DNA of 64,000 nt from Imbricaverruca yamaguchii (Eukaryota; Arthropoda; Thecostraca; Neoverrucidae), in the NCBI GenBank assembly GCA_034440575.1, contig JAOTOL010001646.1, forward strand, positions 2,821,501 to 2,885,500, given 5' to 3'. A program made the translations under genes and the position numbers. The notes under the pieces are model-generated. The model was given only the letters and a program-made list of their open reading frames with translations, was not told the DNA's origin and made no database searches. This document shows, one piece after another, positions 3,701 to 53,100 of the stretch (its first letter is position 1; every line of letters begins with the position of its first letter).

Positions 3701-6700
3701 ACAGGGTTCGAATCGCTTCATGCGCTCGCATTTAGCTCCCGGCTGGGAGGGTCAACTGGCAACCGGTCCGATAAGGTCGGAGACAAACTACCGGGCGAAC
3801 GTATCGGTGCGTTGACGGCATGTTAAACTTTCGGTTAAAAGTCTGTCGTTGAACTGCAATTCATGGATCGGGTGGTGGGGCTAGAGTCCACGCAACAGGC
3901 TCTGCTTAGCAAGGGAACACTGGCTCACACAGCCACCCGAACAAGGACTTGAATTATATTTCTTGTTGCTGTATGCTAGTAATACTTGTTGCTGTGGACT
4001 GGTATTCGTATTGCTAAAAACATTAAGCAATGATTCATGTCGCTTTTCTGGGAAAACATGAAGTGCGGTGTGAGTTTTCTTTGAATGAAGTGTGCCAAGT
4101 TTTCACCTCAGCAGGTTTGCAGACGGATCAACGGGAGAAAATTCACGTCCAGGGAGGACAGCACAAAGACTGAGAGTGACCTGTTTTCAGACGGTGTCGA
4201 GTGACCGAAGCGTCTCCTACCTCTGGGAGATGGGCATGGCCGAGGGCGTGCCGCCGGTGCGCGTGCAGTTCTGTGTCGACTACCGCGCCGTCGACGCCGA
4301 CGGCAGACAGCGCTTCAAGTTCGAGTTCACCGTGGCCGACTACAAGGTGGGTTCACAGCACGTCTGCATCTCGTGGGACACCGGCTGCAAGGTGGGCTAG
4401 TAGCACGTCTGCATCTCGTGGGACACCGGCTGCAAGGTGGGCTAGTAGCACGTCTGCATCTCGTGGGACACCGGCTGCAAGGTGGGCTAGTAGTACATCT
4501 GCATCTCGTGGGACACCGGCTGCAAGGTGGGCTAGTAGCACGTCTGGATCTCGTGGGACACCGGCTGCAAGGTGGGCTAGCGACACGTCTGCATCTCGTG
4601 GAATAACGGCTACATGGTGTGCCAGGCCCAGGGACGGATCCAAGGGAGGGAAGCGAAGGAGGCGATGCCTTGGGATCCGAAAGGCGCTCCTCAGACTGGA
4701 GGAATGCACCCTACCTCCGTTGAATTGTTCAGCCGAATGCGTTTATCCAGGACACTGGTGTGTACCCCTTCAAATTTGCTTGATTGGTAGCGCCACTCCA
4801 GACACCACGGGCTCAGGCAGGCGCCCCATCAGAATTATGCCCCCCCCTCCCCGGTAAAATCTTGCATTCATCAGTGCCCAGATGTGTGACCATCTGCGAA
4901 GCCGTTTCGCACTAAAGTACACAGGTCTGCTTCCTCGTAATACGCCGCATACAAACTCGGCATTGACAGACTTTGCGCCGACTTCACTTCCGAGGACCGC
5001 GCGGTGTCCCATCCACCCCGCACGGAGTGAAGGGCATGTCGCGCGCTCCACCAATGTATCCGTTGGTGGAGCTTTTCTGTGACAGGTGACACGATAGTGT
5101 TTGCATTCTGTGACGGTGAACTCCGTCCTGTCCTGCGGCGTAATCTCGTGACAGTTCTCGCTGTTCCGGTGTGACTTGGGTGGTTTCGATCACGTTCCCG
5201 GTCATAGCCGTCGCCGGGCGTTGAATGTTGGGAAGGGCAAATCATGCTTATTGTCCCAGTTTCAGCCATTTCTTCTCATAAGAAGCGAAGAGTCGTTGGA
5301 TTTAAGCTGCGGTGTTTTGAGGTTCGGGAAGTCTGTCTCAGGTGGCGACGCGCCGCCTCAGACATGGACGCACCGGCGCCCCACCCCACGCCCCAGCTGT
5401 TGCCATCAAGTTTACTTCCGAAGTCAGGATCGCTTGGTCTGACTTCCAGATTTCCGACTAGATGACGTCCCAGGCGTAGATGTTGATGTACATCTTCAGG
5501 GTTTGTGCATAAACAAGCTGTTACCAGTCCAAAAACTTGTCATATCAGGTAACTGGACCGACTGTTTGTTTATTCATATAGTAAATTCGTCCCATCTCCG
5601 GTTTAAAAGTTTTCAGATCAACGTAATTAGTATGGCCTGACTCCGCCTTTGGGATGTCACGACGACTACTTCCCGCTAATGTACGCATGAAACCGCCTTA
5701 TGCAGACTGCGAACCGACCACACACGCTACTCACCAATACTTGGGAAGAGAGAGGAGGAACCTCTGCAGGAGAGAGAGACCAAAATACCCTCACTGTCTG
5801 GAAGACATTACGGTGCGACATGTGCTTTTCTCATGCCAGCACTTCTCAAGGGAGCGAGGGTTGCTCTACGGAAACAGGATCAGACATCTAACAGTTCGCG
5901 ACGTGCTAGCAGATGACTCGAAGATCGTTTATTCTGGTAACACGTTCAGGTACTTGAGAGTGATTGGATATCAAGCCATACACTCACCTATGAAATAACA
6001 GAATCCTCTGGAGTGGGCAACTCCATAGGATTCTGACATGCTAAATATTCGTTGTGGGCGCTAAGTTATCACATTTTTGGTCCAAGCGCCCTAAAACACA
6101 AATAACTAACTAACTGAAGTGTCTTGCTAAACCTCTCACCACAGGCTGGCTGACCCATCATTACCTGTTGGCAGACGCTGTTCAGTGTCCTGCTCAACCT
6201 CTCACCACAGGCTGGCTGACCCGCCACTACCTGTTGACAGATGCTGTACAGTGTCGTGCTCAGCCTCTCACCACAGGCTGACCCGCCACTACCTGTTGAC
6301 AGATGCTGTTCAGTGTCCTGCTCAGCCTCTCACCACAGGCTGACCCGCCACTACCTGTTGACAGACGCTGTTCAGTGTCCTGGTCAGCCTCTCACCACAG
6401 GCTGACCCGCCACTACCTGTTGACAGACGCTGTTCAGTGTCCTGCTCAGCCTCTCACCACAGGCTGACCGGCCACTACCTGTTGGCAGACGCTGTACAGT
6501 GTCTGCTCAGCCTCTCACCACAGGCTGACCCGCCACTACCTGTTGGCAGACGCTGTTCAGTGTCCTGCTCAGCCTCTCACCACAGGCTGACCCACCCTCT
6601 CGCCTTTCGTGTTGCCTCTCACCCAGGTGACCCGCCACTACCTGTTGGCAGACGCTGTTCAGTGTCGTGCTCAGCCTCTCACCACAGGCTGACCCGCCAC

Positions 6701-8900
6701 TACCTGTTGACAGACGCTGTTCAGTGTCGTGCTCAGCCTCTCACCACAGGCTGACCCGCCACTACCTGTTGGCAGACGCTGTTCAGCGTGTCGTGCCGGA
6801 TAGAGCCGGTGAAGGGAGCCGAGTTCTGCAGGTCGGGCTCCATCTGTCAGCTGTGCGTGACGGTGACGCAGGAGGACGGCGACACCGACCTGCGGGCCGT
6901 CATGTACGAGGTGCTGGCCGACCAGAACATGTGGGCCGTCTGCGGCCGCAGTTCAGGTCAGTCGCCGCCGCCGCCGCCGCCGCCGCTGCCCGGGTCGTGG
7001 TAGTGGTGGCGCTGGCGCGGGCATGGCGTCGTGCGAGTACAGGTGTCGTGCCGTGTTGGAAATGGCATCTTATGCTGCGATACGAAATGTTGCAATTCGA
7101 TGTGCCATACAGTTATCACGCCATCGGGCCATCGGCCCCGATGTGTCATACCGCGTCGTCGGGCAGTGTGAAGGCTTAAGACCTAAGGGCGGATCCAACC
7201 GGTCACTTTTTTTTTGGTGGCAAGCTTCCGATGGTCGTCAGATTCCCTTCCCATCCCACACAAAAATGTATTGGCCGGTTTTCACAGCAAGGCTGCGAGA
7301 CAATGTTGAGCGGATGTTGGACGGCTACGCTCCGCGCTCCCGGAGGAAGAACATTTTTGGTTGCTTTGTTTTGGAGAGAGCCTAGATATGTGTCTCCTTT
7401 CAGTTTTTTTGTGGTATGAGTATAGGAAGCGTGTGTAGCAGAGTACAGTCTGTTATGGACGAGGACGTCTCATTTCTGACCATGCGCTGCTCCCAGGTGT
7501 TACCCACCGACCTGTATCGCCTTGTTTGTGAGGGCAGGTGTGCTCGACATGGGCCCCGACCCGCGGCACACTACAGCTGAGTAGATCGTGTCTGACCATG
7601 CGCTGCTCCCAGGTGTTACCCACCGACCTGTATCGCCTTGTTTGTGAGGGCAGGTGTGCTCGACATGGGCCCCGACCCGCGGCACACGATACAGCTGGGT
7701 AGATCGTGTCTACCCATGCGCTGCTCCCAGGTGTTACCCACCGACCTGTATCGCCTTGTTTGTGAGGGCAGGTGTGCTCGACATGGGCCCCGACCCGCGG
7801 CACACGTACAGCTGGGTAGATCGTGTCTACCCATGCGCTGCTCCCAGGTGTTACCCACCGACCTGTATCGCCTTGTTTGTGAGGGCAGGTGTGCTCGACA
7901 TGGGCCCCGACGCGCGGCACACGATACAGCTGGAGGTGATGCCGCTGACGGGCGGCTTCCTGCCGCTGCCCACCGTCCGCCTGAGCCGGTACATACCGGC
8001 CAACAAAGGTCAGCTGGCGACAGGGCAGCGCAGCCGATCGTGTCTATCTCATGTTGTGTCAGCAGATCGTGTTGCGCATGAGTCGGGTCGAGCGCGGTGT
8101 TATTCCTGATCATTTACCGCCGGGAAAAGGGGCGGGGATGACCGAGTGGTAGTGTTGGGCTCTGGGTACCAAAGGTCCCGGATTTGACATCCGTACCGAT
8201 CGGGGCATTTCCAAATCCCGCGGCCCATCGGCGAAGCAGTGTGGGCTGTGCCATTAGCCGTGAATGTGCATACAGTGCGTCGTGAACTACCCAATGAACA
8301 AACAAACCGTCGGGAAAGATGTTTAAAAACTGAGTTCTCTTTCATGTTTTGGACGGCGGAGTTGTCCTGTTGCAAAAGCTATTCAATGATTAGTTCGTCT
8401 GGAGTAGACGTACAACGGTGCTGAAGATGCATATATGTTAATTATTTTTCCTTGACAAATGTTCACATGTGGTTGAAGATCACATGCAGTCTGGTATTGC
8501 TAGTTCACTTCGTCATTGTTGTTATCTGAGTTTTGGGGCGCATCGACTGCGTCGGTCATGTACTGCATGCACTTAAAAACATATGCGTTCTTGTCATAAA
8601 CGTGAGTTACATTTTGTACCATGCGTTTTTAATTGTATTTTGCCGTTTCTATCTCAAATACTTCGATCATGCCATTTCTTGATCAAATATTGCAACTGCC
8701 CATGCATGGTGTGAAATAACTGGAGTGTGTGTGTTGCAGAGCCAGCTGGACGCGTACTGAACGCCGGCTCCACTCTGCCTCGTCTGGAGCCGTTCGCCGC
8801 CGGTCAAGTGTTCAGTGCCTCGCGTGGACAGCAGGTGCATGTGCTGTCCACGTCAGGGTCGTCTGGGGGCGCCGCCACCGTCGACAACTCACTGACGTAG
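777..8900 (+). CDS. TRAPPC10: TRAPPC10, C-terminal exons (gene is 5'-partial in window)
   Basis: Trafficking protein particle complex subunit 10, a TRAPPII subunit that acts with the Rab-activating core at the Golgi. Six coding exons are supported: 793 (or 777)-960, 3218-3331, 4191-4346, 6776-6956, 7889-8008 and 8740-8900. All introns are GT-AG and the phases match across every junction (0,0,0,1,1). Diagnostic C-terminal motifs are CRSGSICQL, VMYEV.ADQNMWAVCGRS, LEVMPLTGGFLPLPTVRL and LPRLEPFAAGQVFSAS, in the order known for TRAPPC10. The protein ends VDNSLT. The upstream exons for most of the protein lie outside the window. The oddity is that nearly every intron has a minisatellite touching an exon edge, several carrying copies of the splice site itself. 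The weakest points are the start of the first exon and the exact 5' edge of the second. Confidence 0.92.
793..960 (+). CDS. TRAPPC10: TRAPPC10 coding exon (first in window)
   Basis: Encodes CSRGLTMRRPDDAG... through SLLHK and ends CACAAG before GTAGGT, phase 0. Two acceptors are possible: CTGCAG ending at 792, or GGGCAG ending at 776; the second would add one base and five codons. The text DELVLKVPPLAAFESVSLAV looks like a beta-rich trafficking-subunit segment. Confidence 0.75.
3040..3110 (+). mobile_element. 5'-truncated SINE/LINE tail copy
   Basis: Contains GGGCGCTGCATGACCGATG, then GTCGATG, CCCCTAAAC and an AACAACCAACC end. This is the shared tail described for the SINEs elsewhere in the window (for example 13418-13480 on the other strand). 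No tRNA-like head precedes it, so it is a 5'-truncated insertion in a TRAPPC10 intron. Confidence 0.65.
3218..3331 (+). CDS. TRAPPC10: TRAPPC10 coding exon
   Basis: The acceptor CGTCGGCAG ends at 3217 and the donor is CTG before GTGGGT at 3332. The 38 codons (VVMHGLNAAEFELSEPG...LNAAGQRL) are phase 0 at both ends, matching the neighbouring exons. The open frame extends upstream to about 3122, so a longer exon is not excluded, but the other visible acceptor (ending 3176) is out of phase. Confidence 0.72.
3332..3560. repeat. GC-rich ~20-bp minisatellite directly after a donor site
   Basis: It begins at the GTGGGT donor of the preceding exon with a short CCGCCG run. It continues as about nine imperfect units of AGGGCCGCCAGCTGTGCTGT, alternating CTGTGCTGTA and CTGCCGCTG. 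Intronic; no gene seen. Confidence 0.85.
3641..3915 (+). mobile_element. tRNA-derived SINE, family A
   Basis: The head GCCCCGATAGCTCAGTTGG with AGCGCTGGCCT matches a tRNA 5' half (A box). GGGTTCGAATC about 50 bases later is a B box. The body (TTTAGCTCCCGGCTGGGAGG, CCGATAAGG, CGTTGACGGCATGTTAA, GGATCGGGTGGTGGGGCT) recurs in reverse at 34395-34678 and, more diverged, at 62012-62171. The long non-tRNA body shows it is a SINE, not a tRNA gene. Confidence 0.88.
4191..4346 (+). CDS. TRAPPC10: TRAPPC10 coding exon
   Basis: The acceptor CTGTTTTCAG ends at 4190 and the donor is TACAAG before GTGGGT. The 52 codons (TVSSDRSVSYLWEMG...FEFTVADYK) are phase 0 to phase 0. The V-x-Y-x-W opening and the Y/F-rich end FKFEFTVADYK fit the TRAPPC10 segment just before the conserved C-terminal Ig-like region. 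Confidence 0.85.
4347..4610. repeat. 45-bp array duplicating the exon donor site
   Basis: Starting exactly at the donor, a 45-bp unit ending CGGCTGCAAG-GTGGGCTAG repeats about five times, then fades. Each unit re-creates an AAG|GTGGGY donor at 4347, 4392, 4437, 4482, 4527 and 4572. Read through in frame, the second unit gives a TAG stop. Confidence 0.9.
4611..5653. other. TRAPPC10 intron sequence, nothing recognised
   Basis: Unique-looking intronic sequence with a short C-run near 4842. Small open frames here show no recognisable domain. No RNA gene or complete mobile element was seen. Confidence 0.5.
5654..6118 (+). mobile_element. 3' end of a Jockey-like LINE (ORF2 C-terminus and 3' UTR)
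   Basis: The reading frame to 5998 ends a retrotransposon ORF2. PHCLEDITVRHVLFSCQHF is the C-H-C cluster that follows the RNase H/thumb region in many arthropod LINEs, then LTVRDVLADD and a stop. The 3' UTR folds as GGGCGCT...AGCGCCC (6047-6090) and ends in CAAATAACTAACTAACT. This 3' structure resembles the tails of the SINEs in this window. The copy is 5'-truncated and not autonomous. Confidence 0.75.
6125..6775. repeat. ~62-bp minisatellite carrying splice acceptor plus exon start
   Basis: About eleven units of CTCACCACAGGCTGACCCGC-CACTACCTGTTGRCAG-ACGCTGTTCAGTGTC. The TTGGCAG-ACGCTGTTCAG part is identical to the real acceptor and first codons of the TRAPPC10 exon at 6776. Every unit is therefore a ready-made decoy acceptor. 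One unit near 6590-6640 is interrupted by a different CTCGCCTTTCGTG segment. Confidence 0.92.
6776..6956 (+). CDS. TRAPPC10: TRAPPC10 coding exon
   Basis: The acceptor TGTTGGCAG ends at 6775; this site keeps phase 0 with the previous exon, whereas the nearer GTTCAG at 6786 does not. It encodes TLFSVSCRIEPVKGAEFCRS...MWAVCGRSS and ends in TCAG before GTCAG, phase 1. It is rich in cysteines, as in the family. A CCG trinucleotide run follows the donor at 6962. Confidence 0.9.
6957..7469. other. TRAPPC10 intron, no feature beyond a CCG run
   Basis: Opens with a (CCG)n tract at 6962-6987. The rest is unique sequence with T-runs near 7206 and 7404. No gene or element recognised. Confidence 0.5.
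7470..7888. repeat. 116-118-bp array duplicating the intron/exon junction
   Basis: Three complete extra copies of the junction precede the real exon. Each has TGTTTGTGAGGGCAG-GTGTGCTCGACATGGGCC and continues through CGGCACACGATACAGCTGG. That is the acceptor plus the first 42-43 coding bases of the exon at 7889. Copies of the exon start lie at 7538, 7654 and 7772; each then meets GTAGATC, a donor-like end. Confidence 0.93.
7889..8008 (+). CDS. TRAPPC10: TRAPPC10 coding exon
   Basis: The 120-nt exon starts in phase 1 (completing a glycine codon). It encodes VLDMGPDARHTIQLEVMPL, then TGGFLPLPTVRLSRYIPANK, and ends AAAG before GTCAG. EVMPL.GGFLPLP.VRL is one of the best conserved strings of TRAPPC10. 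Its first 43 bases occur three more times upstream. Confidence 0.93.
8129..8305 (+). mobile_element. tRNA-derived SINE, family B
   Basis: The head GGGGCGGGGATGACCGAGTG resembles a type II (Leu/Ser-like) tRNA. The body (AATCCCGCGGCCCATCGGCG, AGTGTGGGCTGTGCCATTAG, CCGTGAATGTGCATA) is shared with 36786-36967. Near-identical flanks ACCGCCGGGAAA before and ACCGTCGGGAAA after are a likely target-site duplication with one mismatch. It lies in the last TRAPPC10 intron. Confidence 0.88.
8530..8570 (-). mobile_element. Short SINE/LINE tail fragment
   Basis: GGGGCGCATCGACTGCGTCG-GTCAT is the reverse of the shared tail motif ATGACCGAAGCAGTCGATGC. Only the tail core remains. Confidence 0.5.
8740..8900 (+). 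CDS. TRAPPC10: TRAPPC10 terminal coding exon
   Basis: The acceptor GTGTGTTGCAG ends at 8739; phase 1 matches the previous exon. It encodes EPAGRVLNAGSTLPRLEPFA, then AGQVFSASRGQQVHVLS and ends VDNSLT with TAG at 8898-8900. LPRLEPFAAGQVF is the family's conserved terminal motif. Confidence 0.92.
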
Positions 8901-16154: not shown

Positions 16155-17855
16155 TCAGAGAATCTCCAGGTCTATATGCCTGATCTGTGGGAATGCCTTT
16201 CTCAGTTCTGACTCGATCCGGTCGATCTCAGCGCCCATCATGTCGACGATGGCCTCCCCGTGGCGCAGCAGGTAGCGCTCCACGTCGGCGCCGTCCAGCG
16301 ACGCCGCCTCGCTCGCCAGCACGTCCGAGTCCTGACGCGCCAGGTACTTCTTGGTGAGCTCGCGACCGTCGAAGTCCACCTCGGCCTTGTAGCGCACCAG
16401 GCCGTTGCCCATGTCGATGCCCTTGACGTCGTGGATGCCGCGGATCATGACGTCCTCTTCGAGGCGCAGGTTGATCCGTTCCAGCTCCTCCTGGCGGATC
16501 GACTGGCCGACCAGCGTGTGCGCGTTCGTGTAGATGATGAAGGTGGCCACGGTGCCGAGCAGGCCCCCGATCACCATGGAGCCGCACGCGTCCCACACCA
16601 TGTTGCCGGTGACGGAGCTGAGCGTCATGCTGGCGCCCGCCACGAACACGCCCACCACGGCCGCCATGTCCTCCAGCAGCACCACGTTGACGGACGGGTC
16701 GCGACCCTGCGCCACGTACTGCCAAAACGAGCAGCCCTGGCGGCGCGAGTTGAGCGCGATGTTGCGCGCCGCCAGCACCAGCGTCACCGTCTCCGAGACG
16801 AGCGCCGCCGCCAGCACGCAGTAGGCGATGAAGAAGTCGCCGAGCGGCGCCGGCGAGTACAGCGCGTGGAAGCCGTGGAAGAAGGCGACGCCGCTGCCCA
16901 GGCAGAAGATGCCGACGCCCGAGATGAGCGACGCCACGTGGCGCACGTTGCTGTAGCCGTACGGGTGGTCCAGGTTGGCGCGCTGCGTCGACTTGTGGAT
17001 GCCCATGGCCAGGATCACCTGGTTGGCCGTGTCGGCGATCGAGTGCAGCGTCTCGGCGAACAGACTGCTAGAGCCGGTGAAGGCAAACGCGGCGCCCTTG
17101 CCGACCGCATTCATGGCGTTGATGCCGACGGCGGTGAGCACGACATGCGTCGACCCCTTCAGGTTCTCCTCCTCCACTTCGGAGTAGTAGGGCCGCTTGC
17201 GCTGGCCGCGCCGGTAGTCCTTCAGCACCTTCTTGACAGAGAAGAGCGCCTGCTGGTGTGTGCGCCACGCCAGCTCCCGCTTGCGCCGCTCGTCCTCCAG
17301 CTGCTGCATACTGCCCCACTTGCGGATGGCGGTCTGCTCCACCTCGGCGCGCCAGTAGACGCGTATCGGCGGCTCGTTCTCGAACGGCGACCGGCGTGTG
17401 GTGCTGCCCAGCGGCTCCAGGTCGCCCGCCTTCAGCAGGTACTCCTCGGTGGCGCGCACCGCCGTGATGAAGTTCCGGTCGGTGGGCCGGCGACCCTTCA
17501 CGACCGACACCGGTGGCGTGCGTGGCTGCGTCCGCCCCGGCTCGGGCTCTGGCGCCTTGCGAGCAGGCACGACCAGCGCCGGTGCTTCCCCGGCGCGGGG
17601 CACCGAGATATCCGCAGGCGGATCTCCACTGGAGGAGGCGGGCGGTGACGGCGCCGGCGCCGGCGGCGGAGGAGGCCCACTGACGCCACCCTCACTGCGG
17701 GAGGTGGGCGGCGGCCGTAAGGGAGGCGGCTCGCTCGCGCCGCCCCCGCTGGAGGCGGCTCGCAGTGCGGCCGGCAGCCACACCGGCTGGCGGCGCAGCA
17801 TCGACGCGCAGCCGCGCACGCACATCAGTCTCGCCGCCGCCGCCGCCAGAGGCAT
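16155..17855 (-). CDS. SLC30A9: SLC30A9 (ZnT9) mitochondrial proton-coupled zinc antiporter
   Basis: Exports zinc from the mitochondrial matrix in exchange for protons; CDF family. The frame is open from 17930, but ATG 17853-17855 is preferred: it opens a mitochondrial presequence (MPLAAAAARLMCVRG...MLRRQPVWLPAALRAASS) and gives 566 residues, very close to the human length. A Pro-rich linker is followed (residues about 125-215) by the family-specific N-terminal domain (FITAVRATEEYLLKAGDLEP, RRSPFENEPPIRVYWRAEVE). The six-helix CDF core spans about 237-450, with HSIAD in TM2 and LLEDMAAVVGVF in TM5; the ED replaces HxxxD, as is usual for this subfamily. The C-terminal domain ends FPQIRHIDLEIL. 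The whole gene is a single uninterrupted reading frame, in contrast to intron-bearing TRAPPC10. No frame damage is seen. Confidence 0.95.
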   Translation of the reverse strand: MPLAAAAARLMCVRGCASMLRRQPVWLPAALRAASSGGGASEPPPLRPPPTSRSEGGVSGPPPPPAPAPSPPASSSGDPPADISVPRAGEAPALVVPARKAPEPEPGRTQPRTPPVSVVKGRRPTDRNFITAVRATEEYLLKAGDLEPLGSTTRRSPFENEPPIRVYWRAEVEQTAIRKWGSMQQLEDERRKRELAWRTHQQALFSVKKVLKDYRRGQRKRPYYSEVEEENLKGSTHVVLTAVGINAMNAVGKGAAFAFTGSSSLFAETLHSIADTANQVILAMGIHKSTQRANLDHPYGYSNVRHVASLISGVGIFCLGSGVAFFHGFHALYSPAPLGDFFIAYCVLAAALVSETVTLVLAARNIALNSRRQGCSFWQYVAQGRDPSVNVVLLEDMAAVVGVFVAGASMTLSSVTGNMVWDACGSMVIGGLLGTVATFIIYTNAHTLVGQSIRQEELERINLRLEEDVMIRGIHDVKGIDMGNGLVRYKAEVDFDGRELTKKYLARQDSDVLASEAASLDGADVERYLLRHGEAIVDMMGAEIDRIESELRKAFPQIRHIDLEIL

Positions 17856-18149
17856 CTGCCGGCACAGAAGGACGGCATCAGCGGGCCGCCCCCTCCGCGC
17901 GCGCTCTGCCCGGCCGACGACGTAGCCCACCAGCTGACCTCACCGACGGTGACAACGACGCTGACCACAGCCGCCTCACTAGCATCCGGTGGACTAGCGT
18001 ACATGTGGAGCACGCCAGCCATGCCTGCGCCCGAATACCAACCAGCTGTCCGATGCCAATAAGAAAACACAGGACGGAGTCAGGTTTGGAAGTGTGAAGT
18101 TTTTCTGAGGTGCGGCCATCTTTGGGCGAAGTGTCTCCTTTCTCCACCA

Positions 18150-21100
18150 TAGGTATGTCTAACTAATATCCACATCTATGCATTCATTTGCACATTTTGT
18201 GCAATAGAAGCAAAAGGAAACATTTGCATATGCACTTGATCTGATGAGTTGAGCATGCAGGTGTCATACATTGATGCCAAAGCAACATAGTGTACACTTT
18301 TTTAATTGGCATGTGTGTCCCAGTGGCTTCTCTTGCAGTGGGTGCATGCCTCAAGATAGCCTCCAATGTAGTGACATTGGTAGAATTAGAAATAAAAATG
18401 ATTATGGGCAAGTGCAGAATATTCACAGGAGCAAAATTACATTCTGTTAGTTTCAATTCAGTCACTGCATGCCATGTCAGGTGTTCTTACTTTGAGGACC
18501 AGAGTTTCACGACAGACAAATATATAAGCATTAAAGAACACTTTTTTTTAACATTCAAGAGTGTACAAGTTAAGGCTGGACAAAATATGAATCCATTAGA
18601 GAAATACTAATCCCAACAATTTGGGAGGGTGAAATGCACTGATTCCCAGGCATTCTGTCAAGATGCATGACACTGATTCATATGTCCTCTGTGAGGGTGT
18701 GAATTACCAATTCCCATTTCCTCTGGGAGGGAGCAAGACACTATTTCCCAGATACAACACCAAACAATTAATCATCCCCTTCCTCCCTGCAACCTTGGAT
18801 CAAACCTTGATGGCCCTTGCTTGAGACGATATGGGGGAGAGAGCAAGATAGAGAAAGAGAAAGAAAGATAAGAAGAAAAGACAGGGAGAGAGGGATAGAG
18901 ATAGAGATAGAGAAAAAGGAGAGAGAGCTAACTTGGAGCATAACTCACCTACTCTGGACCAAGAAATAATTAAATGCCATTAAGTTGACCAGTCATAAAC
19001 TTCTCAATTGTACAGGATGAACAAAAGCCACAGGGGTCTGTCTGGGCTAAGCCCACAAAGATAAAGCACTATAAGATGAGAAAAGCATCAACAAAATATC
19101 ACAGGCACTGCCATACCAGAGTTTCAAGGAAATCATCTAACCTGATGCACTACCATGGTCAGTCCCATCCGGAGCACACACACAAAGGAAGGTGCCAAAC
19201 CCACCACCATGCACACTTGCTACCAGCAAAATCCCCATTCATCAGCATGATAAGACATAAAAGATTAGTGCAACTATGAGCCACAAGGGCCCTTCTTGGT
19301 TGCACTCTGTACACTGAACCAGTTGCCCACCAAATCTGTCAATCAGCCCTCCCTGTAACACTGAAAAGCAAGCCCTCTATTTTTTCTTATAATGATTGTC
19401 TATGCTGTTTTTAAAGATGTTCAATGTGCTGCTACTGACGATGTTTTCTGGCAGCTGGTTCCAGTGTTCCACTACCCTGTTGGTGAAGAAAGTTTGCCTT
19501 AACCTTGTTCTGCTGTGGTTAATTTTAATTTTGAATTTATGACCTCTAATTGCATCATTTCTGTTAAATTCAAAGATTTTCCCAAGGTATCCCCTCTCCA
19601 GACCATTGACAAATTTAAAGACCTGGATGAGATCTCCTCTCAGCCTTCTGTATCTAAGTGAAAACATATTCAATTTCTTCAATCTTACCTCATATGCCAG
19701 GTTGCTTATGCCATTAACCATTTTTGTAGCCCTCTTTTGCACTCTCTCTAAAAGCCAACAATCTTTTTCATAGCTAGGAGACCAAGCTTGGATGCAGTAT
19801 TCCAAATGTGGCCTGACGTATGCACAGTAAAGCTTCCTGATCACTTCCTCACTTCTGTATGATACATTCCTGTTTATTGCCCCGAGCATTCTCAGTGCCT
19901 TCTTCCTGGCTTCCTTGGTCTGTTCTGATGCCCCCAGTTTTGTGTTTAGAATAACACCTAAATCCTTCTCCTGTTGAGTCACTGATAGGACTTGGCCATC
20001 CATCAAGTATGGAGCCTTCATATGCTGCTTACCTACATGCATGATTTTGCACTTATCAAAATTAAATTTCATTTGCCATTCTTCGGACCACTTTGCAAGT
20101 TCGTCTAAGTCTTTTTGCAGCGAGATATGCTCATCCTGACCTGTTATTGCCCTAAAGACCTTCAAATCATCCACAAATTTCAAAACTTTACTGCTTAGGC
20201 CACTTTCAATGTTATTTACAAATATAATGAACAGTAATGGCCCTAGTACTGACCCCTGGGGGACTTCACTAAGAACATTTTGCCATGATGACTTTGTACC
20301 ATTTAGCATCACTCTTTGCTGTCTATCTGAAAGCCACAACTCTATCCATTTTAAGATGCTACCTGCAATACCATGGGACTGAAGCTGTATGTAATCTTCC
20401 AATGTAAACACTGATTTGAACTGCTTGCTCAGCTCCTCAACCATCTCACTATCCTCACCCAATGTAGTCCTGTTTACTTCCAGTGGACCAATTGTGCTAG
20501 AAACTTTACTCAGCTTGTAGAAACTAAAGAACTTTTTACTGTCCCCATTACAGTTTCTAGCTAAATCCAGTTATTTTGCTTGCTTTGCTTCTCTGGTGCA
20601 AACTCTAAATGCAGTTTTCATAGCCTTAATTGCTTTTATCATGTCTGGTGTAAGCCATGCTGGCTTTCCTACCCTTCTTTTGCATCTTTGCTTTTGGGGG
20701 ACATGTCTAATCTGAGTTAACTTCAAGTAAGATTTGAACCTTTCCCACATTTCACAGGCATTTAAATTGGAGAATTCTTCTTCCCATCTGATGGCACTTA
20801 AAGCCGCTCTCATGCCGTCAAAGTCTGCTCTGTTGAAACTTGGAACCTTTACCAAATTATCCTTGATAATTTCCCCTACATGTGCCTTGAATCTAACTAT
20901 GTTATGGTCACTTTTTCCCAGAGTTTCGCCTACAGTCATGTCTTGAACCAAGTCACTTAAATCCGAGAATACAAGGTCCAAGAATGAACCATGCCTGGTG
21001 GGTTCCGATACAAACTGGTATAAGAACAGGTCCTCTTCAAGGCATTTCCTAAACATTTTGCATGATGGGGAGCCAACACCAGCATTTTTGTAACCTTTTA

Positions 21101-22860
21101 GATTAAAGTCACAGAGAATAAGGCACTTCCTCTTAAAGTTTCTACTGATTTCCTCACAAATCACCTTGTCAACCTCCAGTTGCTGAGAATGTGGCAGGGT
21201 TCCTGATCGGTAGAAAGCTCCTATCCTAAGAGTATTGCTGTTGCCTTTTCCCACAGTGACATCAAGCCAAATGGACTCCACAGACACATTTTTATCCCCA
21301 CCTGCTACTTTTTGAGAACTGAATAAGCTATTCATATAGAGCATTACACCACCCCCTTTCATTGCTGGACCCCTATTGCATGAAAACATATTGTATCCCT
21401 GGATCTCATAGTCCTGTAAGTTATCTCCAAAATACCCTTCACTGACCCATGCCTCTGTAATGCAAACAAAATCTGGTTCCTCCTCAGCAACATAACACTT
21501 GAACTCATCAAATTTGGAACAGATACTCTGAGCATTAAACATCATACACTTAACAAATGCTCCATAACCACCTTTGGCTTTTTCATATTGAGGAGTTCTT
21601 TTATCACTAGATGAACTACAACTCTGTCCCCTTGAGTTGCTGCTGTCCCTATTTGCAGACTTTGACATTCTATTGCCTTGGCTGACACTATTGGAATATT
21701 CCTGAGTTGGCAATGCAATTTCATCCCTCCCCACCCCATTTCCTAGTTTCCCTGAAGGACATGCTCATATACTTTGCCTAACACATGGACCCCCTTCTCA
21801 GAAAAGTGCAAGCCATCCCTCTGATCCAAGACCTTGCATCATCAATTCCAATCCAACCACTCAATTCCACATTATGCCATATTATCTTAGTCTAGGTTAG
21901 GCTAGATTACTTTATGCTTTGTAAATTATTCACTCATTCATATGCAATTTCTGAACTCTTGATTATAAGCAGAACACTGCAATGAGCAGAACACCCAGCA
22001 AATATGAGTAGACAAACATGCCACAGCCATGTGCAGGTTATGCCACATATCAGTGTAATTTAGTCTTGCCATGTGTGGTTTGTGCTCCAGCATCTCACAT
22101 AATTATTAAACTTTCTCTTGAGGACAGTCACTCAAGCTTATAATTTTTCCAACATGGTGTCAAAGGAATTCTAGCACCACAAGATTCATAAATTCATTCT
22201 CGAAGCATCAAAGCTTTATAAGCCACCATTTAAATCCCATGATGGTCAGTCAGACACTATTGAGGTGCAAGCAGACAAGCCACGGCCATGATGATCCCAT
22301 TAAGGTATGCAAATGTTTGCAGAATTTTCATGAAATACTGTTTATATCAAAGCACATTTCCTCTGTATCTTGCTTATGCCATCATTAATTTCATCAACCA
22401 CCACTGACTTAAAAGTAATAATTTGTGAATAAAAATAAATGGTTGCATTATCTTCACATTAAAAAAAAAACATTGAAACAAAGAATTCCAAAGAATTAAA
22501 TTTTACCTTCATCTCCAAATTTACCACAAACTTGTTAAATCAAGTTACCTTAATCTCCAAATTTACCATATTTCCTACCTACTTGAAACTGGCATCATTG
22601 TAAATAGGTACCCACTTATCTAGGTAACCTACCTATCTAGGTAGGTACCTACCAAGGTACCTACCTACCATTAATATCTATTCTCTATGTAACATTACTT
22701 GATGTTGGCTCACTATCTTGGAGGATGCATCCATTAACACAAACAAAATCTGCTGTAAAACCACCATCCACCTTGATCATGAATGGCAGCAAAAATATAT
22801 CCATTAGGCACCACTGTAAAACAATATAGTATAAAGTCATAAAGTCATAAAGTTAAAAAG
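18150..22860. other. AT-rich, CpG-depleted tract
   Basis: From about 18150 to 22860 CpG is strikingly rare (about three CpGs between 18181 and 19200), in contrast to both flanks. It contains a GA-rich run (18840-18925), the CR1-like LINE and a direct-repeat stretch of ACCTACCTATCTAGGTAGGT near 22610-22670. No host gene recognised. Confidence 0.75.
19377..21840 (-). mobile_element. CR1-like non-LTR retrotransposon, internally deleted
   Basis: Read on the minus strand. 21840-21743 encodes the end of ORF1 (VLDQRDGLHFSEKGVHVL, a D..H esterase-type motif), stop TAG. 21734-20574 is the ORF2 endonuclease: FNAQSICSKFDEFK, ITEAWV, ILCDFNLKG, LGKSDHNIV. A single in-frame TAA (20571-20573) follows, then the frame continues unchanged to 19377. 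The reverse transcriptase part keeps the end of motif B to the thumb (VPQGSVLGPLLFIIF, FVDDLKVF, DLGVILNTKLG, RPHLEYCIQAWSP). The first part of the RT domain is missing: the text jumps from FKSVFTLED to YIQLQSHGIAG. The YADD/FADD-type box reads FVDD. It is therefore a dead copy that could only move if helped by an intact relative. Confidence 0.92.
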
Positions 22861-50097: not shown

Positions 50098-52584
50098 TCA
50101 GGTTTGGCCAGGGTCGGAAACGGCAGCGTTACCGGCAGCGAGAGCAGCAGCAGGCTGAGTGGCAGCGTTACCGGCAGCGAGAGCAGCAGCAGGCTGAGTG
50201 GCAGCGTTACCGGCAGGGCGCGGCTGGTGGGGTCCGGGCGCGGGGGTGGCAGCGTTACCGGCAGCGAGAGCAGCAGCAGGATGAGTGGCAGCGTTACCGG
50301 CAGCGAGAGCAGCAGCAGGCTGAGTGGCAGCGTTACCGGCAGCGAGAGCAGCAGCAGGCTGAGTGGCAGCGTTACCGGCAGCAAGAGCAGCAGCAGGCTG
50401 AGTGGCAGCGTTACCGGCAGCGAGAGCAGCAGCAGGATGAGTGGCAGCGTTACCGGCAGCGAGAGCAGCAGCAGGCTGAGTGGCAGGTTCAGTTTCGGTC
50501 GCAGCACGAGCAGTCGGCGGCGCATCAGTTGCGGTAGGAACTGCATTGGCCGTGACAGGAGTATCCATGGGTGTTGTGTGAGACGCAACAGGGGCCCCGG
50601 TAGGAGCCGTCTTGGTCACAGCAGGAACAACATCGGTTGCTGTCTTTGTCACAGCATGAGGAGCATCGGTGTCTGTCTTGGTTGCAGCGGGAGTAGCGTC
50701 GGTCTTGGTCACAATAGGAGCAGCGTCGATGGCCGGTTTAGTCGAAGCAGGAGCAGCATCAGTGGCAGATTTGGTCATATCAGGAGCTATATCAGAGACT
50801 GGTTTAGTCGAGGCAGGAGCAGCACCAGTGACATCATTTGGAGGAGGACGTGCCGTGGTTTCGGTAGGCGCAGTAGCGGGGGCAACCTTCGTCGGAGCAG
50901 CGACAGCGTCGGCACCCTTGATCTCCTCAGTAGAAACAGCGCGAGGAGCGGATTTGGCTGCTTCCTGGACAGCGGGGGATTTGTCGGTGGCAGCAGGGGC
51001 GTCACCAGAGCTCGGTTTTTTGGCGGCGGAGCAGTCAGGCGGAGCAACGATGGGCACGGCGCGGCTGGCGGGCCGGTGCAGCTTGACTGCGGCAGGCACA
51101 AACACCGGGGCGGAAACAACCGAAGCAAGATCAAAAGTGGAAATCTTCTTGGCGACAGGAGGCTCGACGGTGACCACGGCAGGAGCGGCGGCGGCGGCAG
51201 GAGCGACAGCGGGCGGCGACGTCAGCGAGACCTTCTTGACCGGACCGGAGGCGCGCGGCGGGCCGCCGAAGCCGCGCGAGCCGTCTGGCCCGCGCGGCTG
51301 GCGCGTCACGTTGTCGCGCGACATGAGAGAGCCGCGCCGGTCGACTTCCGACAGGCCGGACGCCTTGCGGCGCGCCACCCACGGACACTGGTCGGTGGTG
51401 CCCGGCGCCACGCCGCAGAACGAGTTGGACTTCTTCTGGCGGCCGGTCGGCGCCGGCTGCGGCAGCACGTTGGGCGACGAGTGCGACTTGCCGCGGTTGG
51501 ACAGGTGGTGGTCCACGGCCAGCCGGATGTCGGTGCAGGCGAACAGGCCGCCCGGCCGGGACGGCGGCGACAGACGGTGCGCGCGCAGGCCGGGCGGCAG
51601 CGGCAGCAGCGGCGGCCGGCTGCCTGAGCTGAAGCGGCGCGCCGGCGTCAGCTCGCCCTCGGTGCCCGACATCGAGCTGTTGCTCTCCATGTGGACGAGC
51701 GGGTTCTTCTTGCGCTTCTGGCGACGCTTCTTCTCGGCGGCGGGCGCGCCGGCCTCCTCGTCCTGCAGCGCGGCGACGGCGCGCGGCTCCTCCTGGCGCG
51801 ACTTCTTCTTGTTGCTCACCTTGCCGATCGGGATGATGTGCATCGTGTCGTCGCCCATGGTCTCCTTGGCGCAGCGCGCCTGCTCCTGCAGGTCGAACTC
51901 GACGACGGCGCAGTTGACGCCCTCCCAGACGATGTCCGGGTGCTTGTTGAAGGCGGCACGCACCTCGACCGGCACGTTCTGACCCGGCTTGAGCACGCGG
52001 ATGCTGCTGATGTCGCCGCAGCCGGCGAACAGCGCCGACACGGACGTGATGGTGGGGCTGTCCATGGGCAGGTTGACGGCCACCACCGTGCGGCTGGTGA
52101 CCGTCTCGTCGTGCTCGGGCAGCGGCTGCAGACGGCGCACCTTGGAGCCCTCGTCGTTGACGTCGAGCGCGGCGCTGTCGCGCACGGCGTGCGCCACCAC
52201 GCGCCAGTCGCGGCTGATGTGCTTCACGCGCTTGAAGCTGGAGATGAGCTTGATGCTGACCAGGCCCTCCTTGTTGCGCTTGACGTGCTTCAGCAGGAAG
52301 GCGTCCTTGAGCAGGTTGTCGTCGCTGAAGTAGAACTCGACCGCCTCGACGATGTGGCGCGCGGTTTCGGCGTCGGGCGGCACGAAGCTGTCGGCCTCGA
52401 CTCCGCTGTCACGCGCGTCCGACAGCGACGACTCGCCCGTCGAGAAGGGCGCGTCGTCGGCCGTCGGCAGCGCCTTGCCAGCGGGCGCGGCCTCGTCGCC
52501 GTCGGTGGAGCTGGTGCTGGCCGCCGACTGGCGGCGGTCGGCCAGCTCGGCCGGCGTCGGCATCGGCTCCGCCAGCGTCTCCAT
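50098..52584 (-). CDS. LARP6: LARP6 (La-related protein 6, acheron) with long C-terminal extension
   Basis: RNA-binding protein of the La superfamily; in animals it binds structured mRNA 5' regions (for example collagen mRNAs) and controls translation. The frame is open to 52719, but ATG 52582-52584 is preferred because of its strong context (GCGCCATGG); it gives 828 residues. From that Met: a disordered acidic N-terminus, the La motif at about 70-160 (VEAVEFYFSDDNLLKDAFLL, VSIKLISSFKRVKHIS), the RRM at about 165-255 (SRTVVAVNLPMDSPTI, CAVVEFDLQEQARCA), a basic KKRRQKRKKN stretch near 285, and a SUZ-C motif near 425-441 (VTRQPRGPDGSRGFG). LARP6 proteins normally stop soon after SUZ-C (human about 490 residues). 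Here about 390 Ala/Pro/Thr/Lys-rich residues follow, ending in a 13-residue tandem repeat. No introns in the frame. Confidence 0.95.
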   Translation of the reverse strand: METLAEPMPTPAELADRRQSAASTSSTDGDEAAPAGKALPTADDAPFSTGESSLSDARDSGVEADSFVPPDAETARHIVEAVEFYFSDDNLLKDAFLLKHVKRNKEGLVSIKLISSFKRVKHISRDWRVVAHAVRDSAALDVNDEGSKVRRLQPLPEHDETVTSRTVVAVNLPMDSPTITSVSALFAGCGDISSIRVLKPGQNVPVEVRAAFNKHPDIVWEGVNCAVVEFDLQEQARCAKETMGDDTMHIIPIGKVSNKKKSRQEEPRAVAALQDEEAGAPAAEKKRRQKRKKNPLVHMESNSSMSGTEGELTPARRFSSGSRPPLLPLPPGLRAHRLSPPSRPGGLFACTDIRLAVDHHLSNRGKSHSSPNVLPQPAPTGRQKKSNSFCGVAPGTTDQCPWVARRKASGLSEVDRRGSLMSRDNVTRQPRGPDGSRGFGGPPRASGPVKKVSLTSPPAVAPAAAAAPAVVTVEPPVAKKISTFDLASVVSAPVFVPAAVKLHRPASRAVPIVAPPDCSAAKKPSSGDAPAATDKSPAVQEAAKSAPRAVSTEEIKGADAVAAPTKVAPATAPTETTARPPPNDVTGAAPASTKPVSDIAPDMTKSATDAAPASTKPAIDAAPIVTKTDATPAATKTDTDAPHAVTKTATDVVPAVTKTAPTGAPVASHTTPMDTPVTANAVPTATDAPPTARAATETEPATQPAAALAAGNAATHPAAALAAGNAATQPAAALAAGNAATQPAAALAAGNAATQPAAALAAGNAATHPAAALAAGNAATPAPGPHQPRPAGNAATQPAAALAAGNAATQPAAALAAGNAAVSDPGQT
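50103..50485 (-). repeat. LARP6: 39-bp coding minisatellite at the LARP6 C-terminus
   Basis: About nine units of GGCAGCGTTACCGGCAGCGA-GAGCAGCAGCAGGCTGAGT. On the minus strand each encodes NAATQPAAALAAG, or NAATHPAAALAAG where GGCTGAGT reads GGATGAGT. The 39-bp unit keeps frame, and one interrupted unit (50215-50250) also stays in frame. The array lies in the last 130 codons of the protein. Confidence 0.95.
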
Positions 52585-53100
52585 GGCGCCCGCTCGGTCA
52601 GCCGGGGCCGGGGGCGCGCCGCGCGTAGTGCCGCGTGCCGCGCTGGCTCTGGGACGTGGCTGCGCGGTCCCCAGCCGTGGTCTCTGTCTGCCTGGCGCCA
52701 CACCGTGGTCCGAGTACACTGAGCCGGCCGGCCGGCCGCCGCATGCTTATGTAGGCTGACATTGGCCGAGACCTTGGCCGGCCGGCCGCCGCCGCCGCCG
52801 CCGCTGACGCTGACGCTATGATCGCTGCGGCGGCGCCCGCGCCGATGGCGGCGCAGCGCCGCCGCCGCGCTCTGCATGCCACGCTCTTGTCGCCCGGGTG
52901 TGGACGAACCTCGCCCGTCAGGTGCGAGATTGCTCCCGGTGGTGTTCTGTTTCCGCGGCGTTCCGCTCGCCGTCCAACGGATTTCCGCAAACGGTGCAGC
53001 GCAAGTGCCCAATTGTGCAGGTCAGCAACGCGGCCGACTTGCAGACCCTTCCTGGTTCCGCAAAAGGAAATCGTCACCCGTGCGGCAATGGTGTAACATG
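52585..53100 (-). promoter_or_regulatory. CpG-rich 5' flank / probable promoter of LARP6
   Basis: GC- and CpG-rich sequence immediately upstream of LARP6 with GGCCGGCCGGCCGCC tracts at 52728-52740 and 52776-52800 and a (GCC)n run. A CpG-rich 5' flank is consistent with an unmethylated promoter. No TATA box or precise start site can be assigned. Confidence 0.4.

Follow-up and report, generated by a model that had tools for sequence, protein, structure and literature searches.

The 64,000-nucleotide (nt) stretch of the barnacle Imbricaverruca yamaguchii analysed here (contig JAOTOL010001646.1; hereafter the window, numbered from its first letter) holds the 3' part of the TRAPPC10 gene on the plus strand, and one exon of that gene, exon R, is preceded by a tandem array in which its intron-exon junction is repeated.

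The TRAPPC10 locus and the array at exon R

Colinear exons of TRAPPC10 can be followed from about 28 kb ahead of the window to position 8900, and those treated here, all on the plus strand, are M (772-960), P (4191-4346), Q (6776-6956, upstream of the array), R (7889-8008) and S (8740-8900), the last exon, which ends at the stop codon. Exons were located with the human protein sequence as query, and the resulting model contains 19 mapped exons, for which 18 acceptors and 18 donors were assigned to an AG or GT by visual inspection; it is without the first exons (about 200 residues) and without at least one exon between H and I, and the start of exon I is an alignment edge only. Both joined stretches, A-H and J-S, read open. 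The sequence-only reading had named TRAPPC10 as host gene, and the joined last exons bear this out by matching the Pfam TRAPPC10 family PF12584 (E 7.6e-20). By protein search the gene is 72% identical to TRAPPC10 of Pollicipes pollicipes, while the other 119 of the best 120 of 427 matches lie at 32-52% identity, many over part of the query; the host is accordingly a barnacle, though not P. pollicipes itself. When exons Q, R and S are joined at 7889, they align with the P. pollicipes protein with 0 gaps in 153 residues. A PDB search with the C-terminal exons returned a single chance-level match (E 0.35).

Between exons Q and R, Tandem Repeats Finder (TRF) delimits one array on the plus strand at 7480-7933, with a unit of 118 base pairs (bp), 3.9 copies and 97% matches, composed of three extra copies and the functional unit. 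Extra copy 1 (7480-7595) has its AG at 7536-7537 and an exonic piece at 7538-7580, extra copy 2 (7596-7713) has them at 7652-7653 and 7654-7698, and extra copy 3 (7714-7830) at 7770-7771 and 7772-7815; the functional unit (7831-7933) carries the true acceptor AG (7887-7888) and the first 45 nt of exon R. These AG dinucleotides, ending at 7537, 7653, 7771 and 7888, place the first exonic bases exactly where the sequence-only reading had put them (7538, 7654, 7772 and 7889), and the spacing between successive copies, 116, 118 and 117, agrees with its unit of 116-118 bp. The central claim, that acceptor, coding bases and a donor-like end had been copied three extra times, is thus upheld by both the TRF array and the copy alignment. 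Each copy was further said to contain 42-43 coding bases followed by GTAGATC: the GTAGATC end is present in all three, and the pieces measure 43, 45 and 44 nt instead. The extra copies are 95-98% like the functional unit over 104 nt, any two units differ at 1-4 positions over about 103 nt, through substitutions as well as indels, and all three extra copies have C at a position where the working exon R has G. The array sequence had one match in the 767-Mb assembly (1430 contigs) in a search skipping very common words. The array is not a chance resemblance, and an assembly error at this locus is improbable. At the acceptor of exon S (8740) no junction copy was found.

We consider, at a probability of roughly 0.8, that the array is a minisatellite whose unit fortuitously covers a splice junction, in a genome where tandem arrays abound, a 'mirage' in the sense used for amphioxus, that it arose by the history outlined below, that splicing goes to 7889 and that the extra copies are close to neutral. 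The clue to its origin is a filler that stands in each unit between the exonic piece and the intron end, reading GTAGATCGTGTCTA in copies 2 and 3, and that exon R lacks at this place. Compared with the next-intron region (7934-8700), the filler matches 8033-8046 on the plus strand at 12 of 14 positions, a match reached in 0 of 2000 same-length stretches from the upstream part of the gene; the best match in the 656 bases ahead of the array is 8/14. The repeat finder independently paired an overlapping next-intron stretch, 8026-8045 (family D2). The stretch at 8033-8046 may therefore be a trace of an originally larger duplication. The simplest history, and the most likely one, would begin with a short tandem duplication that ran from the intron end through exon R and its donor to about 40 nt into the next intron; the duplicate would then have lost its middle, that is, the rest of the exon and the donor, leaving the acceptor, 45 exonic nt and a 14-nt next-intron remnant, and this 117-bp unit would have been amplified by slippage or unequal exchange. 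The array may since have been tolerated as close to neutral, perhaps with low-level mis-splicing.

Arrays at other exon edges

Exon R is not the only exon of the gene with an array at its edge. In TRAPPC10 such arrays lie across the acceptor in six exons (D, G, L, M, Q and R) and across the donor in two (F and P), such that 8 of 32 arrays straddle an exon edge against 2.23 expected when arrays are placed at random avoiding exons, the null used throughout (reached in 1 of 2000 permutations). The array at exon G was found only at the lower TRF score, and the overlaps at F, L and M amount to only 5-6 nt; at the stricter score 7 arrays straddle against 1.82 expected. Three further such arrays of the gene reach into the window, all on the plus strand. 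A 62-bp-unit array at 6118-6796 overlaps the acceptor end of exon Q by 21 nt and contains nine further junction copies, every one of which keeps the AG (9/9); a 45-bp-unit array at 4336-4619 overlaps exon P by 11 nt at its donor AAG/GTGGG (the slash marks the splice boundary, here and below); and an array with units of about 80 bp at the exon M acceptor (1-776, starting about 58 bases before the window) overlaps that exon by 5 nt. Upstream of exon L lies a 2-kb array of units of about 42 bp (L002:6823-8801), in which the acceptor AG is kept in 43 of 47 copies and which therefore offers dozens of potential acceptors.

To leave TRAPPC10, which was an ascertained gene, chaperonin CCT loci were chosen by Pfam match alone. 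Of 66 CCT matches, 40 entered the main count, 10 a further set and 3, on contig C89, were treated as a second copy, with 13 left out; the main set spans seven stretches, six genes and 40 exons, the exon edges being those of the hidden Markov model (HMM) matches and not annotated ones. Here 8 of 44 arrays straddle exon edges against 4.40 expected (141/2000 permutations), which becomes 8 of 35 against 3.77 at the stricter score (59/2000) and 8 against 3.74 once two exon starts are also corrected (25/1000). Over all eight loci, TRAPPC10 and CCT together (59 exons), 16 of 76 arrays straddle against 6.57 expected (1/2000), and 15 against 5.49, about 2.7-fold, at the stricter score with the two CCT starts corrected (0/1000). 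In three further CCT stretches with 10 exons there was 1 array and none straddling, so loci differ. The CCT arrays include an exon end of about 50 nt copied once together with its donor, a 23-bp unit repeating variants of GAG/GTAAG, and a 76-bp unit with an acceptor and about 45 coding nt. Junction copies from 14 arrays retain their AG or GT in 94 of 103 cases, or 51 of 56 without the 47-copy exon L array, a count that leaves out exon 6 of C217 (register off by one) and C89 (second haplotype). In 12 of 15 arrays, a count that includes both contigs of one gene and the off-by-one array, the copy closest to the working junction resembles it more than the other copies do on average; none of the rank correlations for copy polarity reached p 0.05, and we do not rely on this polarity.

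These numbers raise the possibility that arrays in this genome arise preferentially at splice junctions, through a biased process that goes beyond neutral overlap. The straddling excess would speak for it, both over all loci and in TRAPPC10 by itself, as would its persistence at the stricter score in the combined and the corrected CCT counts; arrays more than 100 bp from exons are also fewer than expected, which is partly a necessary counterpart of the excess. Nevertheless, TRAPPC10 was selected because of one of its arrays, and the excess, firmer from this gene (7 vs 1.82), is less firm from CCT (8 vs 3.74), where the uncorrected counts were reached in 141 and 59 of 2000 permutations, the edges are HMM edges, the same run counted an array overlapping an HMM match by 85 nt when the null has a limit of 70, and the three further loci contributed no straddling array. 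Moreover, tandem arrays with a period of at least 8 cover 20.5% of a 155-kb background (16 stretches of the same contig), so that some overlap with junctions is to be expected, and 15.3% of the window. When 40-mers of 20 intronic and 20 exonic nt were taken at each TRAPPC10 junction and a copy sought within 2.5 kb, one was found for 4 of 36 junction 40-mers, against 1229 of 4780 from introns and 2 of 218 from exon interiors. That junctions are richer in copies than introns is thereby ruled out, and the excess exists only against exon-avoiding placement. On balance we regard a biased origin as possible, at clearly worse than even odds.

Elsewhere in the window, all on the minus strand, lie an open reading frame with La and SUZ-C matches (50098-52746), which we take to be LARP6-like and which has a 39-bp tandem array (50122-50486) inside its open frame; a cation efflux family frame open over 594 codons (16155-17939); and retrotransposon pieces (19377-21764) with a reverse transcriptase match and a weak endonuclease match. 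An Rfam scan of the 64-kb window gave 0 families at gathering score.

Predicted splicing at the extra junctions

The sequence-only reading had proposed that the copies act as decoy micro-exons able to insert a short peptide or shift the frame. To score their donors we used a matrix built from 23 real donors (18 from TRAPPC10, 5 from CCT), with real donors scored leave-one-out and decoys with the full matrix. The decoys CTGG/GTAGAT (1.07 and 1.07) and CTGA/GTAGAT (-2.70) all score lower than every real donor, the minimum of which is 1.49; the donor of exon R reaches 8.84. By length, the second micro-exon alone keeps the frame. A functional cluster of alternative micro-exons is consequently unlikely, with donor strength outside the real-donor range and frame kept in one of three, and the claim of peptide-inserting or frame-shifting decoys finds no support, given the weak donors, the single in-frame piece and the gap-free P. 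pollicipes protein. From the sequence, regular use of the extra copies appears unlikely, and splicing probably goes to 7889 only, because this is the only acceptor before a complete exon that has a good donor, whereas what follows each upstream acceptor is a piece no longer than 45 nt, ending in a very poor donor. The extra junction copies are probably harmless.

Several observations weigh against this picture and should be stated together. No difference is seen among the four acceptors over 20 nt to either side, which means that the sequence by itself does not forbid upstream use, and a splicing machinery that takes the first good AG could choose 7538. Read through to the true donor, acceptor 7772 lengthens the exon by 39 codons (117 nt), in frame and open, and micro-exon 2 (45 nt) is likewise in frame and open, adding 15 codons. 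The duplication history, for its part, rests on one 14-nt match. The first two observations would favour an alternative in which the extra copies are used, either acceptor 7772 or micro-exon 2 giving rise to a TRAPPC10 variant whose ratio is tuned by copy number. Against such variants stand the micro-exon donors, which fall below all 23 real ones, the fact that micro-exons 1 and 3 are out of frame and that read-through from 7538 meets a stop and from 7654 a frameshift, and a P. pollicipes protein without any such insert; we therefore consider their production improbable.

A further alternative would leave the mRNA normal. Recursive, or ratchet, splice sites have an acceptor AG directly before a donor-like GT, and the TRAPPC10 array resembles them in this respect, whereas its sites are near-identical tandem copies known here from the DNA. 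All four junctions read GGCAG/GTGTGC, with a donor score of 7.86 that exceeds 12 of the 23 real donors, and the donor that would be rebuilt after splicing, TCAG/GTGTGC, scores 6.76 and exceeds 9 of 23; with copies spaced 116-118 nt, use of an upstream acceptor could regenerate a donor, and the intron might be removed copy by copy down to 7889. If this were true, splice junctions could multiply freely while the protein stayed unchanged. Exons starting with GT, on the other hand, are not clearly enriched at arrays (4 of 9 acceptor arrays vs 4 of 13 among the other acceptors of TRAPPC10, Fisher p 0.66; tallied by eye, and 5/10 vs 3/12 if the exon G array, seen only at the lower TRF score, is moved), and we consider such a chain very improbable.

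Equally slim is the chance that the assembler or read correction multiplied a single junction, as the 95-98% likeness of the extra copies to the functional unit might suggest, since substitutions and indels separate the copies, other genes have comparable arrays, and one CCT array occurs on both C89 and C1012, two contigs that appear to be haplotypes of one CCT gene, a circumstance that speaks against a general assembly artefact. The arrays on these contigs have 6 extra units each and differ by substitutions and small indels, and no change in copy number is seen between the two. By exon spacing, C89 has about 9 kb more sequence than C1012 in one intron of this gene.

Relation to amphioxus mirages and significance

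By its testable features the TRAPPC10 array is a mirage. Its units are head-to-tail and of minisatellite size, each unit spans the exon-intron boundary with the AG and 43-45 exonic nt, and the conserved P. pollicipes protein fits the exon-attached unit at 7889 only. In two reports on amphioxus, the name mirage is given to exon-intron boundaries duplicated in the manner of a minisatellite, at either end of an exon and in units of 10-160 bp, with examples in Adh3, the globins BflGb6 and BflGb9, TnC and PGBD5 (PMC3087553, PMC3902484). As there described, they share with the barnacle array tandem boundary-spanning units, many with AG or GT, beside a working junction; they differ in that the barnacle host is an arthropod, that several exons of one gene are affected and that the TRAPPC10 unit also holds a segment seemingly taken from the intron that follows. 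BflGb6 is reported to have 6 and 3 units on two haplotypes (PMC3087553, PMC3902484), whereas the two contigs with the barnacle CCT array show 6 extra units each.

Rogers' model, as cited in PMC3087553, derives intron gain from internal tandem duplication of AG/GT segments. The array is similar to what that account envisages in that coding sequence has been duplicated in tandem together with splice signals, the same starting material as the model proposes, but the TRAPPC10 copies all sit within an intron already present, the protein read from the joined exons is like that of P. pollicipes and no new intron is evident. Open-licence literature searches, partly surveyed by title and the start of the abstract, yielded no report of splice-junction minisatellites in barnacles or other arthropods. 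In a human interferon-induced transcript a minisatellite reportedly supplies several splice donor sites that were shown to be used; there too splice sites lie within the repeated unit, yet those are used donors, while TRAPPC10 has copied acceptors with coding bases, recognized from sequence only.

In these two reports mirages are described in a few lancelet genes (PMC3087553, PMC3902484). In the barnacle, exon-edge arrays occur at about one in four of the conserved exons surveyed (16 arrays in 59 exons) and at none of the 10 further exons. Junction-straddling minisatellites in a barnacle suggest that such arrays are not confined to a single animal lineage. Exon-edge arrays may mislead gene prediction in genomes of this kind, and near-identical duplicated splice sites constitute a natural set for studying how the spliceosome chooses among equal acceptors. 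More broadly, exon-edge arrays would represent a stock of sequence from which new introns and exons could be built.

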